Source of the DNA: Jiulongibacter sp.
GTDB taxonomy: Bacteria; Bacteroidota; Bacteroidia; Cytophagales; Spirosomataceae
Length of the DNA: 32,848 bases
Reading direction: 5' to 3'
NCBI GenBank assembly: GCA_024645245.1
Contig: JAHEBN010000027.1
Span: forward strand, 1 to 32,848
This document shows positions 1 through 19,361 of the stretch, one piece after another. How positions within the stretch are numbered: the stretch's first letter is position 1; the number at the start of each line of letters is the position of its first letter. The notes under the pieces were generated by a model that was not told where the DNA came from, did no database searches, and worked only from the letters and a program-made list of their open reading frames with translations. Both the position numbers and the translations under genes were made by a program.

Positions 1-484
1 TCATGTATTCGATCCAGTCAACCATTTCGCCCACTGTTCCTGAACCAACATTGGCCGATATGTAAGGATCGCAGCCCAACAATTCGCAAAGATTCAGGAA
101 TTCGTTGGTGCCAAAACTATTGTCTTCGACCGTTCCGCCCCAAAACACATTTTTAATTTTTGGACGTTCTGCTTCCGGACCAATTCCGTCTTTCCAATGA
201 TAGGTATCAGCAAAACAGCCACCCGGCCAACGTAGATTTGGAATATTTAAGTTTTTTAGGGCATTCACTACGTCTGTACGCATGCCGTTGATATGTGGTA
301 CAAGTTTATTTTCTTCACCAACGTACAATCCGCCGTAAATACAGCGACCCAGATGTTCAGAAAAATGTCCGTAAATGTGCCTGCTGATAGTAGTTTCGGC
401 CAAATCCGTATTTAAAACCAGCTTGTTTTGAGCAATGGATGAAACAGAAATAGAAAGTAATAAGATTAAAATAAGTTTTTTCAT
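1..484 (-). CDS. Alpha-L-arabinofuranosidase, GH51 family (partial, C-terminus beyond window)
   Basis: The reverse strand from an ATG at 484 encodes 161 residues and then runs off the window edge. It opens with a typical signal peptide ([19 protein letters not shown]), so the enzyme should be exported. The mature part shows hallmarks of the GH51 N-terminal barrel: [20 protein letters not shown], then [14 protein letters not shown] and [18 protein letters not shown]51 enzymes remove terminal arabinofuranose from arabinoxylan and other hemicelluloses. The catalytic acid/base and nucleophile glutamates lie further on and cannot be seen here. The gene is divergent from the acyl-CoA genes at 681. 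Family assignment is firm; exact substrate is inferred. Confidence 0.9.
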
Positions 485-2400: not shown

Positions 2401-2455
2401 ATCCAAATCCTTTAATATATACTCATTAGTAATTTTAAAATAAATTGGTTTCAAA

Positions 2456-2848
2456 ATGGCAACTATTCATTCGTTCGAAGAATTGGATATATGGAAATTG
2501 GCACGAGAATTATCAAGTGACATTTTTAAACTTATTCAAAATGGTGATTTTAAAAATGATTTTGGCCTGATAAATCAAATAAATAATTCGTCCGGATCAA
2601 TTATGGACAATTACGCAGAAGGGTTTGAAAGGGGTGGAAATAAAGAATTCTTCAATTTTTTGGTTTATACCAAGGGCTCATGCGGAGAAACAAGATCTCA
2701 AATTTTAAGAGCATTTGAAAGAAATTAATTAACCATTGTCTAAAAAGACGAATTTAATACCAGGTGCGAATTTTTAAGCCGAAAAATTGCTAATTTCATG
2801 AAATATCTACAAGATTCTGATTCAAAAGGAAGCTTTAGAAAGCTGTAA
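2456..2848 (+). pseudogene. Four-helix bundle (S23 / 23S rRNA intervening sequence-type) protein, two in-frame stops
   Basis: The open part (2456-2728, 90 residues) reads IHSFEELDIWKLAREL, then DNYAEGFERGGNKEFFNFL and GSCGETRSQILRAFERN, which is the well-known S23/TIGR02436-like four-helix bundle. It stops about 30 residues short of the family's usual 115-130. The same frame continues past TAA (2726-2728) as LTIV, then a second TAA (2741-2743), then KDEFNTRCEFLSRKIANFM and KYLQDSDSKGSFRKL to a final TAA at 2848. That tail is what the missing last helix should look like. Two nonsense changes with no frameshift (probably Tyr and Glu codons) therefore explain the truncation. A functional 90-residue product is possible but less likely. 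The family's role is poorly known; members occur inside 23S rRNA intervening sequences and as free genes. Confidence 0.72.
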
Positions 2849-3964: not shown

Positions 3965-4725
3965 ATACTTTTTTTAATTACCAGAAATAAGGAGCTGCCA
4001 AAAAATGCTCTTTTAAAGAGTTTTTCTTCTTGCTTTACTAAACTATAAAAAAAACGATTAACCAAATCAGAAGGTAATTGCACATCCGATTTTTGCTTAC
4101 TAATATCAACAAATCCAAATTTTAGTTGGATTTGTTGCAATAATCTAACCACTAGAATAGGGATTGCCAAAAACAAACTCCAATAGGTTGAATACTGAAT
4201 TTCCAGGTTTGGAATACCATCAACAATTTTCTTAAAATAAGGTAAAGTAAAGCGGTGCTTACCACCTAATACTTCGTCATGTATTCCCTTAAATACCGTA
4301 AAAGCATTGTTATTTGTAATGAAAACACCACCTGGCTTCAAAACCTTAGTTACATTTTGAAAAACCTCTCGGATAAGTGTATGATCTAAGCTGTACATAA
4401 CATCATTAGAAATCACCACGTCAAATTTTTCATCCTGATTCAAGGCTAATTCCGCAATATCTAACTGCCTAACATTCAGGTTTCTGCTCTTGGTAAATTC
4501 AACCGCCGAAATAGCGTAATCAAATCCTTCAACAAGAGTATATCCGGTTTTGATAAGTGAATTCATCATTCCTCCAGTACCACATCCAGCATCCAAAATA
4601 TCTATATCCTGAGAGCTAAAATTTCTTATTATTGAATCAATAACTTTTTCATGTAAAATGCGATACCACCAAAGTTTCTCTTCAACTTCATACATGCTTT
4701 GGTACTCTTCATGGCTAAACAGCAT
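3961..4725 (-). CDS. Class I SAM-dependent methyltransferase (sugar/polysaccharide cluster)
   Basis: The product has a clear SAM-binding motif I, DILDAGCGTGGMMNSL, an acidic post-I region (VEGFDYAISAVEFTKS), motif IV (DVVISNDVMYSLDH) and VLKPGGVFITNNN. I place the start at the ATG at 4725 (254 residues): it overlaps the upstream glycosyltransferase by 11 bases, whereas the longer GTG start at 4770 would overlap by 56. Being the last gene of an overlapping sugar operon, it most likely modifies a nucleotide sugar or glycan, perhaps O- or N-methylation of an aminosugar. The acceptor is unknown. A C-terminal hydrophobic segment (FLAIPILVVRLLQ) may associate it with the membrane. Confidence 0.8.
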   Translation of the reverse strand: MLFSHEEYQSMYEVEEKLWWYRILHEKVIDSIIRNFSSQDIDILDAGCGTGGMMNSLIKTGYTLVEGFDYAISAVEFTKSRNLNVRQLDIAELALNQDEKFDVVISNDVMYSLDHTLIREVFQNVTKVLKPGGVFITNNNAFTVFKGIHDEVLGGKHRFTLPYFKKIVDGIPNLEIQYSTYWSLFLAIPILVVRLLQQIQLKFGFVDISKQKSDVQLPSDLVNRFFYSLVKQEEKLFKRAFFGSSLFLVIKKSI

Positions 4726-5623
4726 CCTTATGTAAAATTTTATCTTTAATAATATATTGCGGTGTACCACTTATGGTCATATAATTTTTACCGATATACT
4801 CCCCCAACAAGGAAACAATTGTTAGAAAAAAACCAATAAAAAAAAGCATAAATGATTCAAAAATAATATTTAAAGAACTGATTGTGCTTCCAAATATTAA
4901 CATTAGTGAGAGAAAAATCGAACAAATTCCAGCCAAAAATACAAGTCGGATTGGTAAAAGAGAATATCCAAAAACTATGGTTATGAATAAATTAAATAAT
5001 CTTCGAAAAGAATAATTAGACACCCCATTAACCCTGTCAGAATGCTCCACAAGCACGGTACCTATATTATTAGTAACTCTAAAAATTAAACCATCTATAT
5101 AGGGATAGGGTCCGGTATATTTTACTATTTCTTCAACCACCTCTTTATTAATAAGCTTAAAACTTGAAAGATATAGATCCTTTGGCTTTTTAATTAAGTA
5201 AGTATTTAAGGCATTAATTAACCTGCTTCCAAAATTTCTAAAAGGGGAATGTTTCTTTTGCAAATACTCACTATATACCACGTCATAATCAAATTCTTTA
5301 GCTTTGTTAAGAAGTTTAAGTATTTCTGAAGGCGGATTTTGAAAATCATCATCTATTATAACAGCATATCTACCATTAATGTGATTTAAACCACACATAA
5401 CTGCATTAAATTCGCCAAAATTCTTTCTTAAGTTAAGGAAATTAACTTGCTGATATTTTACAGTCAATTGTTTACAAATTTGGGCTGACTTATCTCTGCT
5501 TCCGTCATTCACTAGGACTATTTCAAAACTTAAATGCCCCAATTCTTCGCCTAACTTTTCGACTAAAACGCCAATTGTCTTTTCAGAATTATAAACAGGA
5601 ATTACTATTGACAATTCTAACAC
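4715..5623 (-). CDS. GT2 family glycosyltransferase (DPM1/GtrB-like, membrane anchored)
   Basis: The 302-residue protein starts with the GT2 signature LSIVIPVYNSEKTIGVLVEKL, then EIVLVNDGSRDKSAQIC and the metal/nucleotide motif VIIDDDFQNPPSEI. Two transmembrane segments follow at the C-terminus (about residues 225-250 and 260-285), then GEYIGKNYM. This layout is typical of undecaprenyl-phosphate glycosyltransferases. The start is GTG, overlapping the TAG of the aminotransferase by one base (TAGTG), so translation is probably coupled. In this cluster it likely moves a sugar to a lipid carrier at the inner face of the cytoplasmic membrane. Confidence 0.87.
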   Translation of the reverse strand: MLELSIVIPVYNSEKTIGVLVEKLGEELGHLSFEIVLVNDGSRDKSAQICKQLTVKYQQVNFLNLRKNFGEFNAVMCGLNHINGRYAVIIDDDFQNPPSEILKLLNKAKEFDYDVVYSEYLQKKHSPFRNFGSRLINALNTYLIKKPKDLYLSSFKLINKEVVEEIVKYTGPYPYIDGLIFRVTNNIGTVLVEHSDRVNGVSNYSFRRLFNLFITIVFGYSLLPIRLVFLAGICSIFLSLMLIFGSTISSLNIIFESFMLFFIGFFLTIVSLLGEYIGKNYMTISGTPQYIIKDKILHKDAV

Positions 5624-14435: not shown

Positions 14436-14466
14436 ATTTAAAGTAAAATCAATTCTCGTTCGTCTT
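14436..14466 (+). promoter_or_regulatory. Probable ECF sigma promoter, copy 1 (autoregulation of the sigma gene)
   Basis: ATTTAAAGTAAAATC (14436-14450), 8 bases, TTCGTCTT (14459-14466). The same two blocks at the same spacing recur at 15448-15478. CGTC in the -10 block is common for ECF sigma promoters. The element ends 27 bases before the ATG at 14494, which leaves room for a leader of about 20 bases. Confidence 0.75.
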
Positions 14467-14493
14467 GCAAAAGAAAAGAAGGTTTTATCTACT

Positions 14494-15042
14494 ATGAGTA
14501 AAGAGGCCAAAACTATTAAATCCACGATTCAGACTTTTGGAAAAAAGTTGTTTGGTTTTATTCGCGGTAAAGTGCGGTCTAACGAAGATGCCGAAGATAT
14601 TCTTCAGGATGTATGGTACCAGCTTTCGAGTTTCGGTAACCTCGAAGATATCGAGAATGTGAGTGCCTGGCTTTATCAGGTGGCACGTAATAAAGTGACC
14701 GACTTGTATAGAAAAAAGAAAACCGATAACCTGGAAGGCTATGAGTTTACAGATAGCGAGGGCGAAATGATGTTTAAGGAAATCCTTCTTTTAGACGATA
14801 GTCAAAATCCAGAACTGGCACTTTTTAAGGAGGCTTTCTGGAATGAATTGGAAAAGGCACTGAACCAACTTCCTGAAAACCAGCGGGAAGTTTTTGTGCT
14901 AAACGAATTGGAAGATTTAACTTTACAGCAAATCGCCGACTTGAAAGGAGAAAACCTCAAAACTATAATCAGCAGGAAGGGATATGCTGTGAAATTTCTG
15001 AGAAACAAACTCAATTATTTATATCAAGAATTAAATTTTTAA
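14494..15042 (+). CDS. ECF-type RNA polymerase sigma factor
   Basis: The 182-residue protein contains only sigma regions 2 and 4, as ECF factors do. Region 2 (about residues 15-75) has GFIRGKVRSNEDAEDILQDV and NVSAWLYQVARNKVTDLYRK. Region 4 (about 120-172) has LNQLPENQREVFVLNELEDL, with the helix-turn-helix TLQQIADLKGENLKTIISRK. The start is the ATG 27 bases after a promoter element it probably recognises itself. The next gene follows after 4 bases. No FecR- or ZAS-type anti-sigma gene is adjacent, so the means of control is unclear. Confidence 0.92.
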   Translation: MSKEAKTIKSTIQTFGKKLFGFIRGKVRSNEDAEDILQDVWYQLSSFGNLEDIENVSAWLYQVARNKVTDLYRKKKTDNLEGYEFTDSEGEMMFKEILLLDDSQNPELALFKEAFWNELEKALNQLPENQREVFVLNELEDLTLQQIADLKGENLKTIISRKGYAVKFLRNKLNYLYQELNF

Positions 15043-15046
15043 GACA

Positions 15047-15349
15047 ATGAAAAAAAAGCTTTTCTTTATTCCGGTAATCCTGACAGCGATTTTCGCATTT
15101 GGTTGGGTGGTAATGATGCTTTGGAACTGGTTGGTGCCGGGCATATTTCATTGGTCAAAAATCAATTATGCACAAGCCCTGGGTCTTTTTGTTTTGAGCA
15201 GAATTCTTTTCGGTGGATTTCATTTCAGAGGGTCGAGATATAGAAGGCCACCATTTGCCAATTCCAAATTCAAAGAAAAATTTATGCACATGACAGACGA
15301 GGAAAAACAAAGCTTTAAAGAGCAATGGAAACAACGATGCGGAAAGTGA
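15047..15349 (+). CDS. Small two-span membrane protein cotranscribed with the sigma factor
   Basis: The 100-residue product has two hydrophobic spans (about residues 5-28 and 42-60: FFIPVILTAIFAFGWVVMML and ALGLFVLSRILFGGF). A basic stretch with RGSRYRRPP and a charged amphipathic tail, MTDEEKQSFKEQWKQRCGK, follow. The tail loosely recalls the metal/misfolding-sensing helices of Spy/CpxP and CnrX-like proteins, but this is a resemblance only. It begins 4 bases after the sigma gene and ends in a terminator, so the two form a tight operon. It could hold or release the sigma factor; I do not recognise a named family. The tail is expected in the cytoplasm if the spans form a hairpin with both ends inside. 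Confidence 0.75.
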   Translation: MKKKLFFIPVILTAIFAFGWVVMMLWNWLVPGIFHWSKINYAQALGLFVLSRILFGGFHFRGSRYRRPPFANSKFKEKFMHMTDEEKQSFKEQWKQRCGK

Positions 15350-15374
15350 GAAACTAATAAAAAAAAGGATCAAG

Positions 15375-15405
15375 AAAGAGTCTTCCAGAAATGGAAGACT
15401 CTTTT
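15375..15405 (+). terminator. Rho-independent terminator after the sigma-factor operon
   Basis: A perfect 12-base stem AAAGAGTCTTCC (15375-15386) / GGAAGACTCTTT (15393-15404) with a 6-base loop, ending in TTTTATTTAT. It separates the sigma operon from the promoter at 15448. Confidence 0.88.
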
Positions 15406-15447
15406 ATTTATACCTTATTATCAATTAGTTAAACCTATTTTTAGGAA

Positions 15448-15478
15448 ATTTAAAGTAAAATCCAGACCTATTCGTCTT
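15448..15478 (+). promoter_or_regulatory. Probable ECF sigma promoter, copy 2 (stress operon)
   Basis: ATTTAAAGTAAAATC (15448-15462), 8 unrelated bases, TTCGTCTT (15471-15478). Both blocks are identical to those before the sigma gene, while the spacer differs, which is what selection on sigma contacts would leave. It ends 25 bases before the ATG at 15504. Confidence 0.78.
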
Positions 15479-15503
15479 CCCTTATATATACAAAAATTTC
15501 AAA

Positions 15504-15740
15504 ATGATAAGATCAATTTTTTTCGGACTATTTATGGGGGCTACTTTATTTTTTGCTCCATTCTTTATGTTGTTCTTTTTGACTTTCTTCTTTTTTATGG
15601 GCATGAGATTTAGAAGAAGAATGCGATACGCCTTTGCTCCATACCGCACTGGTAACCAAGGTGTTTATGCGATGTCTGAATTCGAAAATACCATTTTCAA
15701 AAACAGAAATCATAACAGCCAGATTATTAATATTGACTAA
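15504..15740 (+). CDS. Small Phe/Met-rich membrane protein of the sigma regulon
   Basis: The 78-residue product is strongly hydrophobic for its first 35 residues (IFFGLFMGATLFFAPFFMLF, then FLTFFFFMGM), enough for one or two spans. A basic patch with RFRRRMRY follows, then a polar tail ending in NSQIINID. The arrangement of spans followed by an arginine-rich patch echoes the 100-residue protein of the sigma operon. It is the first gene after ECF promoter copy 2 and is followed within 20 bases by the next small gene. I do not recognise a family and propose no biochemical function; a role at the membrane under stress is inferred from context. Confidence 0.7.
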   Translation: MIRSIFFGLFMGATLFFAPFFMLFFLTFFFFMGMRFRRRMRYAFAPYRTGNQGVYAMSEFENTIFKNRNHNSQIINID

Positions 15741-15759
15741 ATTTTAAAAACGACAAATT

Positions 15760-15927
15760 ATGAAAAGGAGACCAAAAATTTTTGTTAGCGTAGCTGTTGC
15801 CATACTTACTTTCGGTGCACTTACTTCCCATTTTGGATGGAGGCATCATTTCAAACATCATAACCGGCATGCCTCGCACTGTGAGAAAAGCCAGGAAATT
15901 CAAAAAAATAACAATCTAAAAAATTAA
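15760..15927 (+). CDS. 55-residue His-rich membrane-anchored peptide
   Basis: An ATG at 15760 opens a 55-codon gene ending in TAA at 15925-15927. It lies 19 bases after the previous stop and 7 bases before the Hsp20 start, as expected of a gene in the operon. A basic start (MKRRPK) and one hydrophobic segment (FVSVAVAILTFGALTSHFG) suggest a signal anchor. The outward tail carries seven histidines and one cysteine (His24, 29, 30, 33, 34, 37, 40 and Cys41; for example WRHHFKHHNRHASHC). Such a tail could bind Zn, Cu or Ni in the periplasm. No family is recognised. Its tight packing between two clear genes is the main support that it is translated. Confidence 0.68.
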   Translation: MKRRPKIFVSVAVAILTFGALTSHFGWRHHFKHHNRHASHCEKSQEIQKNNNLKN

Positions 15928-15934
15928 TAAAATT

Positions 15935-16330
15935 ATGTGTAGAGACAGAGCTTATTATAATCCGGCATTTCGTCAAATGCCCCATTTTGGAGTCGGTTTT
16001 CGTCGCCCAAAATACAATGTACCCGTAAATATTTCCGAGACAGAAACTGCGTATGAAGTTCAGGTATTTGCTACCGGCTTTTCGAAAGAACAAATAAAAC
16101 TTGCTGTAAAAGAGGATGTATTGATAATTACCGGCGAAAAAGAAATAGAAAACGCACCAAAGTTTACCCAACAAGAATTCCCTGTGAAAACATTTGAAAG
16201 GGCGGTAGCTTTGAATAGAAAAGTTGATGTAGAACTCATTACTGCCAGACATGAGGCCGGGATGCTTTTTGTTACCCTACCAAAATCAACAGAAGCTCTC
16301 AGAAAGGATGTCAACGTTGAAATAAATTAA
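15935..16330 (+). CDS. Hsp20 / alpha-crystallin family small heat shock protein
   Basis: The 131-residue protein is a compact small heat shock protein. A short N-terminal arm (MCRDRAYYNPAFRQMPHF) precedes the alpha-crystallin domain at about residues 27-125: VPVNISETETAYEVQVFATG, VLIITGEKE, and the C-terminal beta strand with AGMLFVTLPK, which is the family's G-x-L signature. Such proteins hold unfolding polypeptides in the cytosol without ATP. It has no signal peptide. It is the last gene of the operon driven by ECF promoter copy 2 and ends before a good terminator, so its induction is predicted to depend on the sigma factor at 14494. Confidence 0.93.
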   Translation: MCRDRAYYNPAFRQMPHFGVGFRRPKYNVPVNISETETAYEVQVFATGFSKEQIKLAVKEDVLIITGEKEIENAPKFTQQEFPVKTFERAVALNRKVDVELITARHEAGMLFVTLPKSTEALRKDVNVEIN

Positions 16331-16747: not shown

Positions 16748-18874
16748 TTAAAGATAACTCTCCACTTTATCATCTGCCATATTAAATGGCTGGCTATAGA
16801 GCCGTTTACCGGTTGTGGCCGCAATGGCATTAGCCACAGCACCACCCAATGGCGGAAGAGCCGGCTCTCCTAAGCCCGTAGGGTCAATTCCATTATCAAT
16901 AAAATGGGCCTCTACCTGAGGTACTTCAGGCATTTTAATCACGCGATAAGTATCGTAATTTTTCTCCAATGGTTCCCCATTTTTAAAAGTCAGCTTGCCG
17001 TACATAGCATGACTCAATCCATCCGTTATGGCACCATAAATCTGATTTTGAGCACCACTCTGGTTGATTACGATTCCGCAATCGGTCACTGCGTATACTT
17101 TTGTCAGTACGGGTTGCCCTTTCTTTTTTTCCATTTCCGCTATTTGTGCCACATAGGAATTATGAGAAAAATAAACAGAAAAGCCCTGATAAACGCCTTT
17201 CTTTTTACCCCAACCCGCTTTGTCAGCAGCCGTTTGCATTACCACACGGAAACGCTCCGGCTCGTAGGTAATTTTACCCACCGGATTTTTTACCACTTTA
17301 TCGATCAGTTCCAGACGCATTTTTATTGGGTCTTTACCTGCGGTTTTGGCCACTTCATCTAAGAAAGATTGCTCGGCATAGGCAAGGAAATTAGTAATCG
17401 GTGCCCGCCATGGACCTGTTGTTATAGTCGATTTGTGATCGTATGATTCTATCAACAAATTTTCGATAGCACCTGCCGGGAAATTATCCTGACGCATCGG
17501 GTTGCCGGTATTTATTCCCACTCCTTTACTATAATATCCGGTGATATTTCCTGCTTTATCTAAAGCCGCTTTAAACCGATAGCGAACTGCCGGACGGTAA
17601 TACCCTCCGGTCATGTCGTCTTCCCGGGTCCAGATCAATTTTACCGGTTTGCCAGTAGCTTTCGATATCTCCGCCGCTTCTATAGCATAGCCATCATCAA
17701 GTCGGCGGCCGAAACCTCCACCCATTTTGGTAAGTTCAACCGTAATTTTATCTTCAGGTATTCCGGTAAGTTTCGAAACGGAGGCTCTTGCTCTGCCCGG
17801 GGTTTGAGTTGGACCAGCCAAAACCACGCTATCCGCTCTTACATCGGCATAAAAATTCATAGGCTCCATAGGGCTATGTGGTAAAAACGGGCATTGGTAT
17901 TCTGCTTCTACTATCTTAGCCGCTTCTTTGAATGCCTTTTCCACATCTCCATCTTTACGTTGTAGTTGGGCCTTGGAAGTATCATCCAGGTATTCTTTGA
18001 ATAGTTTATCGTGATCACTGCTACTTTCCAGATTACCGTCTTTTTCCCATTCAATATTTATCTTTTTACGTGCCTGCATGATCTGCCAGGTACTTTTACC
18101 TAAAACAGCTACCCGGTTACCAACTGCCACCACCTGAGTTATTCCCGGCATTTTTTCAGCTTCGGAAGCGTCAAAACTTTTAAGCTTCATACCAAAAGCG
18201 GTTGGCCTGATTAGTTGAGCCAAATACATGCCTTCCTTTTTCAGATCGATACCATAAAGTGGCTTACCCGTAAGTACCGAAGGATTATCAACCCCTTTTA
18301 TAAAACCACCTATCAATTTAAATGAATCCACCGGTTTAAGTGTAACCTCTGTTGGCGGTGCAAGTTTTGATGCTGCCTCGGCCAATTCGCCGTAACTTAA
18401 TTTTTTACCGGAAGAGTGCGATACCCATCCTTTGCTTGTTTCACAGGTTCTGGCTTCCACCTGCCATTTATTTGCAGCGGCCTCAATCAACATTTGACGT
18501 GCAGTGGCTCCGGCTTTGCGTAGCCGTTCCCAGCTGTGCTTAATTGCACCGCTACCTCCTGTAAGTTGCCTGTCGAAAGCCGGCGAAAGATCCGCCTGAA
18601 GTACTTTTACATTTGCCCAATCTACGTCCAGCTCTTCAGCCACAATAACCGGAAAAGCGGTTTTGATACCCTGACCAATCTCCGGATTGGGTGAAGTTAT
18701 ACTTACTATTCCATCTGATGCGATGGATAAAAACGCATTAAAATTTAATGCGGCTGCCTCGGTTTTAATCACCTCAGAAGCGAATGCTTTATTTGCAGCC
18801 CAGTCGAAACCGATGATTAAACCACCGGAAACAGTTGAAAAGGCTTTTAGAAAATTTCTTCTTGAATGTGCCAT
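16748..18874 (-). CDS. Molybdopterin-binding large subunit of a xanthine dehydrogenase-family (IorB-like) oxidoreductase
   Basis: The 708-residue protein starts with a Tat signal (SRRNFLK, then a hydrophobic stretch to about residue 32), so it is exported folded with its cofactor. The mature part has MoCo-binding features including EAEYQCPFLPHSPMEPMN, MGGGFGRRLDDGYAIEAA and GPWRAPITNFLAYAEQSFLDE. The C-terminal GLGEPALPPLGGAVANA supplies the catalytic-type base Glu670. A single subunit of this length with a split N-terminal half matches IorB-type isoquinoline/aldehyde oxidases rather than XdhB/CoxL. It follows the 2Fe-2S subunit after 25 bases. The substrate cannot be named. No FAD subunit is present, as is usual for this type. 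Confidence 0.9.
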   Translation of the reverse strand: MAHSRRNFLKAFSTVSGGLIIGFDWAANKAFASEVIKTEAAALNFNAFLSIASDGIVSITSPNPEIGQGIKTAFPVIVAEELDVDWANVKVLQADLSPAFDRQLTGGSGAIKHSWERLRKAGATARQMLIEAAANKWQVEARTCETSKGWVSHSSGKKLSYGELAEAASKLAPPTEVTLKPVDSFKLIGGFIKGVDNPSVLTGKPLYGIDLKKEGMYLAQLIRPTAFGMKLKSFDASEAEKMPGITQVVAVGNRVAVLGKSTWQIMQARKKINIEWEKDGNLESSSDHDKLFKEYLDDTSKAQLQRKDGDVEKAFKEAAKIVEAEYQCPFLPHSPMEPMNFYADVRADSVVLAGPTQTPGRARASVSKLTGIPEDKITVELTKMGGGFGRRLDDGYAIEAAEISKATGKPVKLIWTREDDMTGGYYRPAVRYRFKAALDKAGNITGYYSKGVGINTGNPMRQDNFPAGAIENLLIESYDHKSTITTGPWRAPITNFLAYAEQSFLDEVAKTAGKDPIKMRLELIDKVVKNPVGKITYEPERFRVVMQTAADKAGWGKKKGVYQGFSVYFSHNSYVAQIAEMEKKKGQPVLTKVYAVTDCGIVINQSGAQNQIYGAITDGLSHAMYGKLTFKNGEPLEKNYDTYRVIKMPEVPQVEAHFIDNGIDPTGLGEPALPPLGGAVANAIAATTGKRLYSQPFNMADDKVESYL

Positions 18875-18899
18875 ATTTGTTTTAATGTCTTCGGTTAAA

Positions 18900-19361
18900 T
18901 CAATTCATTTTTTCAGCAGCCAGTTTGACCGCTTCGCGAATACGGTGATAGGTACCACATCGACAAATATTATTGCCCATCGCGAGCTCTATATCTTCCA
19001 GACTTGGCTTTGGGTTGTCTTTCAAAAGTGAAGCCGCCGTCATTATCTGACCGGCCTGGCAATAGCCGCATTGTGGCACGTCCAACTCATCCCAGGCTTT
19101 TTGTAAGGGATGATCGCCTTTTTCAGATAAACCTTCGATCGTTGTGATCTCAGCACCGTCTGCCGACGACACAGGTAATACACAAGAACGCACAGCCGTG
19201 CCATTCATGTGCACTGTGCAAGCACCACATTGAGCTATTCCGCAACCGTATTTGGTGCCTACCAGCTCAATTTCTTCACGCAAATACCAGAGCAAGGGCA
19301 TCTCCGGATCTACATCCGACTCGTAGGCCTTGCCATTAATTTTTAATTTTACAATTGCCAT
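18900..19361 (-). CDS. 2Fe-2S small subunit of the IorAB-type molybdenum hydroxylase
   Basis: The 153-residue protein carries both 2Fe-2S clusters of the family. The plant-type cluster is Cys40, Cys45, Cys48 and Cys60 ([17 protein letters not shown], then RSC). The C-terminal helical cluster is Cys98, Cys101, Cys133 and Cys135 (CGYCQAGQI and [11 protein letters not shown]). It passes electrons from the molybdenum site to an acceptor, in this type usually a cytochrome c, which is not encoded next to it. It has no signal peptide and presumably leaves the cell with the Tat-bearing large subunit. It is the first gene of the operon and starts at a single clear ATG. Confidence 0.93.

Follow-up and report, generated by a model that had tools for sequence, protein, structure and literature searches.

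Pairs of an autoregulated ECF sigma factor and a membrane anti-sigma factor are represented by RpoE-RseA of E. coli and SigW-RsiW of B. subtilis. ECF promoters are characterized by a CGTC -10 box and a fixed box spacing, and the -35 consensus of the RpoE/SigW kind is of the GAAC type. CnrY is a small membrane protein. In the CnrH-CnrY system of Cupriavidus metallidurans, it is the class II anti-sigma factor, two helices of which wrap the sigma factor (PMC7406223). According to the same source, a class I anti-sigma gene is found next to only 6% of ECF factors in Bacteroidetes, compared with 32% overall, and other anti-sigma classes may dominate in Bacteroidetes (PMC7406223). The Dma/Das system of Bacteroides thetaiotaomicron includes a dual membrane-spanning anti-sigma factor that goes with an ECF21 sigma factor; Dma combines an anti-sigma domain at its N-terminus with one transmembrane (TM) helix, a disordered tether, and, at the C-terminus, a beta-barrel (PMC13088901). 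In Flavobacterium psychrophilum, the SM6 promoters serve genes that include T9SS components and are induced at low nutrients; that report leaves their assignment to one sigma factor open, and no link to the sigma factor considered here was seen in it (PMC9723704).

Here, we describe an ECF sigma locus in a 32,848-nucleotide stretch of DNA from Jiulongibacter sp. (the window); the features of the locus described below all lie on the + strand. The locus has in common with RpoE-RseA and SigW-RsiW an ECF sigma factor with regions 2 and 4, a CGTC-type -10 box, an element at the sigma gene's own promoter, and a membrane protein gene (gene A) directly downstream. It differs from them in its -35 box, which is TAAAGTA/TAAAATA rather than of the GAAC type, and in gene A, which lacks a class I anti-sigma domain and encodes an apparent two-TM hairpin of ~100 aa. 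The structures of RpoE-RseA, SigW-RsiW, and CnrH-CnrY were all among our structure-search matches, and a literature search yielded no description that we recognized of this sigma factor with gene A, or of the element. Judged from sequence, it is very probable that the sigma factor recognizes TTAAAGTAAAA-N10-TTCGTCT (-35- and -10-like boxes whose starts are 21 nt apart) before its own operon (sigma and A) and again, on the far side of a terminator, in front of another operon, which encodes two small proteins (B and C) and Hsp20.

Two operons and their shared element

The sigma gene (14494..15042) encodes a short protein of 182 aa that belongs to the ECF (group IV) sigma factors, with region 2 matching PF04542 (E 1.7e-10, residues 12-76), region 4 matching PF08281 (E 3e-10, residues 117-158), and the sigma70-ECF family TIGR02937 matched at 77.9 bits (cut-off 42.9); no equivalog cut-off was passed among the best 25 of 97 NCBIfam families. 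Region 4 in the model of a related sigma factor (L016) fits that of E. coli sigma-E bound to -35 DNA (2h27; target TM 0.85 and 0.89), and K156 of the window's protein is the first residue of the region 4.2 recognition helix. Gene A follows at 15047..15349; its 100-aa product has, by eye, two TM helices, and its C-terminal tail is predicted to form two helices. This part of the sigma operon was overlooked by the preliminary description. The second operon comprises gene B (15504..15740), for a 78-aa small membrane protein; gene C (15760..15927), for 55 aa with an N-terminal hydrophobic segment and a His/Cys-bearing tail (both by eye); and a gene for an Hsp20/alpha-crystallin small heat-shock protein of 131 aa (15935..16330; PF00011, E 4.9e-15, 55.9 bits, cut-off 20.8).

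The element consists of ATTTAAAGTAAAATC-N8-TTCGTCTT and is present at 14436-14466 (P1, before the sigma gene, with TTAAAGTAAA as the -35-like box and TTCGTCTT as the -10-like box) and at 15448-15478 (P2, before the B-C-Hsp20 operon). The boxes are letter-identical and the 8-nt spacers are unlike (AATTCTCG vs CAGACCTA). P1 is separated from its ATG by 27 nt (14467-14493) and P2 by 25 nt (15479-15503). The stem of an intrinsic terminator lies between gene A and P2 (15374-15405) and is followed by T-rich sequence; the whole stretch has a folding energy of -23.7 kcal/mol (z -4.77), which was equalled in 0 of 200 shuffles. A simple consensus scan for terminators did not return this stem, and the terminator between the P1 operon and P2 is nevertheless well supported. 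The pair of identical elements, their distance of 25-27 nt from an ATG, and the intervening terminator had all been reported in the preliminary description and were found as reported.

The full pattern is confined to this locus: with up to three mismatches allowed, it matched only P1 and P2 in the whole genome (4,550,241 bases, 315 contigs), with 0 matches for the reversed pattern in the same genome and 0 in dinucleotide shuffles of the window (n=100). A shorter core with up to two mismatches occurred at 7 places, compared with 18 for its reversed control, P1 and P2 having no mismatch and the remaining five having two each. The genome contains 23 matches to sigma region 4 (20 of them above the cut-off), and solely the sigma locus at 14494-15042 is accompanied by the element.

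Gene A as a candidate anti-sigma factor

Gene A is a constant neighbour of the sigma gene, adjoining it (as the following gene) in 80/80 loci selected by sigma and standing directly after it in 84/89 loci selected by A; it is carried by 51/296 phylum genomes and 70/295 class genomes (E values up to 1e-4, of which a few are marginal). It has no Pfam match better than E 0.14, no NCBIfam match, and no PDB sequence match. The predicted fold of the L016 homologue is all helical and ends in a two-helix C-terminal tail; the window's protein has one Cys, close to the C-terminus, and a reading of the charges places both ends in the cytosol.

Known anti-sigma classes were compared in turn. Class I (ASDI) was rejected for gene A, which has neither an anti-sigma domain match nor Hx3Cx2C, a very diverged domain being conceivable. 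The Dma family was also rejected: as in Dma/Das, a Bacteroidota membrane protein (here a candidate regulator) is encoded beside an ECF sigma factor, but gene A, unlike Dma, encodes ~100 aa, predicted to be all helical in the L016 homologue. With class II, gene A would share a short two-helix segment, which differs from that of CnrY in being C-terminal, past two apparent TM helices.

We propose gene A as a candidate anti-sigma factor of a class without a known domain. That gene A instead encodes an ordinary regulated membrane protein (an effector, a chaperone anchor, or a signal-releasing protein), with the sigma factor controlled mainly by its own level, is a serious alternative that we consider possible but do not favour; it concerns gene A alone and is compatible with the promoter assignment. 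It is consistent with the missing anti-sigma domain and with the absence of a sigma-A contact signal. Tail confidence for L016, in blocks of ten with the last eight residues, was 83, 93, and 76 in the sigma-A read-through and 71, 88, and 83 for A alone; being alike with and without sigma, these values provide no evidence of docking. In mean-field DCA of 161 sigma-A pairs, the top inter-protein value was 1.57, compared with 1.11 and 1.53 in two shuffled pairings, which gives the true pairs no clear advantage and speaks neither for nor against binding (each A-only row of the fusion alignment had 3 to 17 residues placed on the sigma part).

The same alternative also accommodates the tail motif that B, a product of the regulated operon, shares with A. 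The link between the two families is confined to the C-terminal 31 columns (hhalign probability 96.7, E 3.8e-10) and holds at probabilities of 95.3 to 96.5 when odd rows of the B set, namely L038 (A-like) and L045 (broken), and further rows are left out; the motif is weak in the window's own gene B. These families come from a strict HMM pass, used in place of an early iterated one that had merged A, B, and C. Against an ordinary membrane protein, gene A still adjoins sigma in loci whose sigma factor has Asn at residue 156, although P2 and B are each found in 0/40 of these, and the apparently cytosolic position of both ends fits a tail that would hold sigma.

A bolder form of the anti-sigma proposal can be offered only tentatively, as slightly more doubtful than even: gene A would define a new Bacteroidota anti-sigma class, a two-TM hairpin with a C-terminal tail (REKxMxMxDEERxxFKEEWxxRC) clamping sigma; B, with the same tail and under sigma control, would be a feedback clamp; and residue 156 would be a one-residue switch of -35 specificity (Lys156 for G, Asn156 for A), which the promoters follow.

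The element and residue 156 across relatives

In the comparison of loci, the counts of which include the window, a two-box model found P1 at >15 bits upstream of sigma in 127/164 loci (controls 0 and 1), the other 37/164 being below this score. At 1.5 bits, the 95% level of the reversed and reverse-complemented controls, P1 is present in 149/164 loci and below the level in 15/164; its box distance is 21 nt in 136 of the 149 and 22 nt in 13. The model, trained on P1 sites only, placed P2 (>15 bits) after the gene following sigma in 71/157 loci (controls 1 and 0). Three loci whose sigma proteins are identical (L009, L080, L148) and two that lack sigma (L155, L173) were dropped, L175 (a late-starting sigma match) was left out of the promoter model, and the P2 test omits three A-before-sigma loci and those with <300 nt after A. 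One A-before-sigma locus, L200, has an element (22.8 bits) directly preceding A.

A small membrane gene lies directly past P2 in most P2 loci, and Hsp20 is nearby in 35; the first ORF within 130 nt of P2 is of the B family in 60/71 and Hsp20 in 3/71. Over 1200 nt downstream (150 loci, after omission of 7/157 with less sequence), P2 and B occur together in 62 loci, neither occurs in 76, P2 alone in 8, and B alone in 4. Two elements 976-1562 nt apart on one strand were found in 17/150 genomes of the family, and opposite-strand pairs within 5 kb in none of the 150. The two-promoter layout of the preliminary description has to be restricted: with at least 1200 nt downstream, P2 was found in 67/93 Lys-156 loci and is absent from the other 26/93 and from 40/40 Asn-156 loci, while 7/7 Spirosoma loci and L102 have no P1 >12 bits within 900 nt. 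A recent local duplication without regulatory meaning, which the letter-identical boxes of the window might suggest, is extremely improbable given the unlike spacers and flanks, the recurrence of P2 with the same geometry in 71/157 loci, and boxes that differ by small steps from lineage to lineage.

The sixth -35 base changes together with residue 156: Lys is paired with G in 100 cases and with A in 2 (both from poorly placed sites), and other residues are paired with A in 47 and with G in 0. Two marginal P2 calls run the other way, with G in L115 (Asn-156, 7.0 bits) and A in L036 (Lys-156, 5.6 bits). Residue 156 was chosen as the best among all columns, and its normalized mutual information with the base is 0.86 (next column, 0.55). 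The tree reduces the link to about 3 independent changes, with 1 pair on well-supported branches, which does not suffice for a sign test. Within this limit, we take the pairing as evidence that this sigma factor probably reads the element. Two further co-variations, between -35 base 9 and residues 163/167 and between the CGTC/CGAC base and residues 52/55, were weak or did not hold up on the tree and are not claimed. Within loci, P1 and P2 resemble each other beyond shuffling clearly at -35 base 10 alone (52/73, shuffled mean 35.2), with a weak excess at bases 1 and 9 and none at 4 and 6.

It is improbable that the element instead serves as an operator for some other regulator (e.g. of heat shock or metal) acting on both operons, with sigma a mere target. 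The promoter assignment draws on sequence comparison, and P2 persists without P1 in four Spirosoma loci (L045, L047, L059, L069), so the element need not precede sigma. An operator of this kind is nonetheless at odds with the ECF-promoter-like anatomy (CGTC -10, fixed spacing), with the lack of a palindrome by eye, with the shift of the -35 base along with the sigma recognition helix, and with the company the element keeps, gene A being present in 13/19 class genomes with the strict pattern against a background of 70/295.

Regulon size and a possible circuit

The preliminary description's view of autoregulation plus control of small membrane proteins and Hsp20 remains the best reading of the sequence, given the element before sigma and the next operon in relatives and the -35 co-variation. 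The predicted conservation beside sigma homologues is likewise borne out (P1, P2, and a fixed box distance), and a search for occurrence at random sites, one part of the refuting condition set by that description, found the element tied to the sigma locus in relatives.

The description of the regulon as self-contained holds nearly, but not always: two genomes (G277, G668) have the B/Hsp20 operon at a site apart from sigma, and a small number of additional targets probably exist. The bare pattern had 12 matches in 296 phylum genomes and 89 in 150 family genomes, compared with 26 and 67 for the reversed pattern (counted by hand from tables); with no excess across the phylum and a slight one in the family, a large regulon is not supported. 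Among 15 family matches hand-picked from the 89, the sigma-A-B system accounts for 8; another 2 stand before one small gene and 1 before a glycosyltransferase, and the remaining 4 have nothing recognizable alongside. Of the distal matches inspected, several from a single genus (f89/g179) sit, by eye, within or close to unrelated coding sequence and were taken as chance.

We lean slightly towards a circuit in which gene A holds sigma and releases it under envelope or protein-folding stress, sigma then driving both operons. The cytosolic two-helix tail of the hairpin would hold sigma until such stress; freed sigma would transcribe the sigma-A operon, forming a positive loop that includes its own brake, as well as the B-C-Hsp20 operon. 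B, which shares the tail motif, may serve as a further brake, itself induced, or as a membrane effector, and Hsp20 would shield unfolding proteins.

The promoter pair can serve directly as a reporter in the search for the signal, and the pairing of residue 156 with the -35 base allows -35 recognition by ECF sigma factors to be tested with a single residue and a single base. For the Bacteroidota, gene A is a concrete and widespread candidate for a non-class-I anti-sigma factor.

Layout of the locus and gene A

On the plus strand of the window, the ECF sigma gene (14494–15042) is preceded by a two-box promoter element, P1 (14436–14466), and followed by a gene for a 100-aa protein, gene A (15047–15349), which is absent from the preliminary description. 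Gene A lies between sigma and a strong terminator stem (15374–15405; z −4.77), beyond which a second element, P2 (15448–15478), precedes a three-gene operon of gene B (15504–15740), gene C (15760–15927), and Hsp20 (15935–16330). The preliminary description had placed the two elements at exactly these positions, separated by a terminator, and both statements hold. Across the whole 4.55 Mb genome, the element occurs, at up to 3 mismatches, at these two places only, and sigma region 4 (PF08281) is matched 23 times (20 over the cut-off). On the minus strand, at 16748–19361, ORFs of 708 and 153 aa resemble by eye the large and 2Fe-2S subunits of molybdenum hydroxylases.

A sigma-based scan returned 459 relatives; in all of the best 80, which were kept (sigma 54–87% identical; nearly all Bacteroidota by title), gene A follows sigma. 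One system (L025; sigma 68% identical) sits in a contig of 477 kb whose title, Pyrinomonadaceae, would place it outside Bacteroidota; this may reflect either transfer or a misbinned contig. Conversely, the 89 loci fetched with gene A (L096–L124 and L148–L207; genomes partly shared with the sigma-fetched set) contain a same-strand sigma in 87 cases, directly upstream in 84, and with the order A then sigma in three; where sigma is unmatched (L155 and L173), the sequence upstream of A stops at the contig end after 50 and 261 nt. At the level of the phylum, 51 of 296 genomes carry gene A; at the level of the class, 70 of 295 do.

Gene A has no family in Pfam or NCBIfam, and a PDB sequence search returned no relative (best E 0.92). 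By eye, two TM helices flanked by basic residues can be made out in the protein, and its C-terminal tail has the consensus REKxMxMxDEERxxFKEEWxxRC. AlphaFold predicts two helices for this tail both with and without sigma attached, and in mean-field DCA on 161 sigma–A pairs the highest inter-protein score was 1.57, compared with 1.11 and 1.53 when the pairing was shuffled. The case for an anti-sigma role is therefore built on synteny, apparent topology, and precedent; we lean slightly towards A holding sigma at the membrane via its tail. The A and B families have a tail motif in common (hhalign E 3.8e-10 at a probability of 96.7, which stays between 95.3 and 96.5 once irregular rows are left out), and in one locus (L038) the gene at the B position is itself A-like.

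The elements P1 and P2 across relatives

The pattern TTAAAGTAAAA-N10-TTCGTCT (at most 4 of 18 mismatches) was found within 260 nt upstream of sigma in 65 of the 80 kept loci (best 80 of 459), an association that the preliminary description had expected beside sigma homologues. Outside these sites there were 66 further forward copies, mostly some 900 to 1500 nt past the start of sigma; as controls in the same loci, the opposite strand gave 11 and the reversed pattern 26 (both strands). When a two-box model was fitted to sequence upstream of sigma in 164 distinct loci, one of them the window, 149 scored over the level that 95% of the reversed and reverse-complemented controls stay below, a count favoured by the model having been fitted to those very regions and by a level of only 1.5 bits, which about eight loci would pass by chance. 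At 15 bits, P1 is present in 127 of 164 loci vs 0 and 1 in controls; in L066 a 27.3-bit element sits at −279.

Among the loci in which A precedes sigma, L200 has a 22.8-bit element that starts about 70 nt ahead of the A match and 408 nt ahead of the sigma match, as would fit a promoter heading the operon; in L185 the element scores lower (14.7 bits) and lies some 400 nt ahead of A, and none was found in L117. P1 was not found in any of seven Spirosoma loci, and the Spirosoma loci L045, L047, L059, and L069 retain P2. In L013, L014, L016, and L022, an earlier in-frame ATG (METxx...) lies 7 nt past the −10 box, where the transcript is expected to begin, which suggests that the sigma mRNA may be leaderless or nearly so. 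In L143 (genome G481, without a gene A match), the element stands ahead of a sigma-like ORF whose similarity ends, by eye, after about 36 residues: a decayed system or an assembly fault.

Applied without refitting to at most 1200 nt after gene A, the P1-fitted model called P2 at >15 bits in 71 of the 157 loci scored, the window among them, vs 1 reversed and 0 reverse-complemented. For 60 of the 71, a B-family ORF is no more than 130 nt away, and for three Hsp20 is that close. The remaining eight comprise three before an HMA-like gene in Aequorivita (L021, L024, and L026), whose product takes gene B's place (that of L021 matches Pfam HMA at E 0.077 only, below cut-off), four that are B-like by eye, and L066, which is unclear. 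In 35 of the 71 loci, Hsp20 is encoded no more than 2 kb after P2. In L078, a short ORF between C and Hsp20 (4674–5063) resembles by eye the N-terminal part of the glycosyltransferase that follows an element in L222 (see below).

Across 150 genomes from the family to which the window belongs, there are 89 element matches, spread over 58 genomes; in 17 of these, counting the window's own genome, two sites stand 976–1562 nt apart on the same strand, and none has an opposite-strand pair within 5 kb. Gene A occurs in 13 of the 19 class genomes with the strict pattern, compared with 70 of all 295, and lies no more than 2 kb from 12 of the 23 strict-pattern matches (the window's own two included); it also occurs in 7 of 10 phylum genomes with an element match. 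In two genomes the element is retained before a B-type gene with Hsp20 that lies away from sigma: 117 kb from it in G277 (L094; weak B match, E 5.4e-5), and in G668 (L226) with neither sigma nor A within 3 kb upstream. In L213 (G643; 228–255, plus strand) and L214 (G651; 2410–2437, minus strand), it precedes, by 21 and 23 nt, two genes that resemble each other and encode small proteins of 117 and 122 aa, probably exported and belonging to no Pfam family. Neither sigma nor A occurs in roughly 2 kb upstream, and this gene is a likely distal regulon member. A UDPGT/EryCIII-type glycosyltransferase begins 73 nt after the element in L222 (G639; 2503–2530, minus strand), and in L088 (G210; 1501–1564), at a great distance from sigma, the gene for a DUF2652 protein (PF10851, E 2.5e-26) has an element 35 nt ahead of it, which could be a chance match.

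Residue 156 and the −35-like box

The −35 box occurs as TAAAGTA, TAAAATA, TACAATA, or TGCAATA, and the −10 box as CGTC or CGAC. When sigma alignment columns from 149 loci were ranked by normalised mutual information per variable base, residue 156 of region 4.2 came top for −35 base 6 (G/A), at 0.86 vs 0.55 for the next column. With Lys at 156, base 6 is G in 100 loci and A in 2; with any other residue (N 42, Q 2, S 1, P 1, and G 1), it is A in 47 and G in none. The two exceptions (L059 and L069; placements of 6.3 and 5.4 bits) are Spirosoma loci, none of which has a P1 scoring over 12 bits. In the P2 set, which is mostly Lys-156, base 6 is G in 71 of 72 Lys loci; it is also G in L115, the sole Asn locus with a P2 call (marginal, 7.0 bits).

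Residue 156 aligns to the Gly preceding the conserved Thr with which the recognition helix begins in solved ECF sigmas, and in the predicted structure of the L016 sigma, region 4 fits that of E. coli sigma-E bound to −35 DNA. Lys-G and Asn-A are familiar side chain–base pairings. On the tree, residue 156 changes three times and base 6 four times, giving three independent residue–base pairs on the best tree; one of them remains when branches must be well supported, and there the base followed the residue. With so few independent changes, a sign test is unable to reach significance. P2 is present in 67 of 93 Lys-156 loci, and neither P2 nor B was found in any of 40 Asn-156 loci; sigma-A with its own promoter is thus the wider trait, the stress operon being confined to part of the family. 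The Spirosoma loci show the opposite arrangement, with P2 kept in four and no P1 found.

A proposed regulon and its place among ECF systems

Together, these sequence comparisons support the reading that sigma recognises both P1 and P2, and that sigma-A and B-C-Hsp20 form one regulon. In the proposed mechanism, A would tether sigma at the membrane through its C-terminal tail, B would be an induced second clamp or an effector, and the signal would be envelope or folding stress, perhaps also metals, since many C proteins, and some B proteins, have tails rich in His and Cys. Autoregulated ECF sigmas are already a known kind, and this group may well be named in the main ECF classification; the sigma family with gene A, the promoter element, and the residue-156 switch were not found in the accessible portions of the literature searched. 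PMC7406223 describes class I anti-sigmas as scarce near Bacteroidetes ECFs, and gene A may be one answer to that scarcity.
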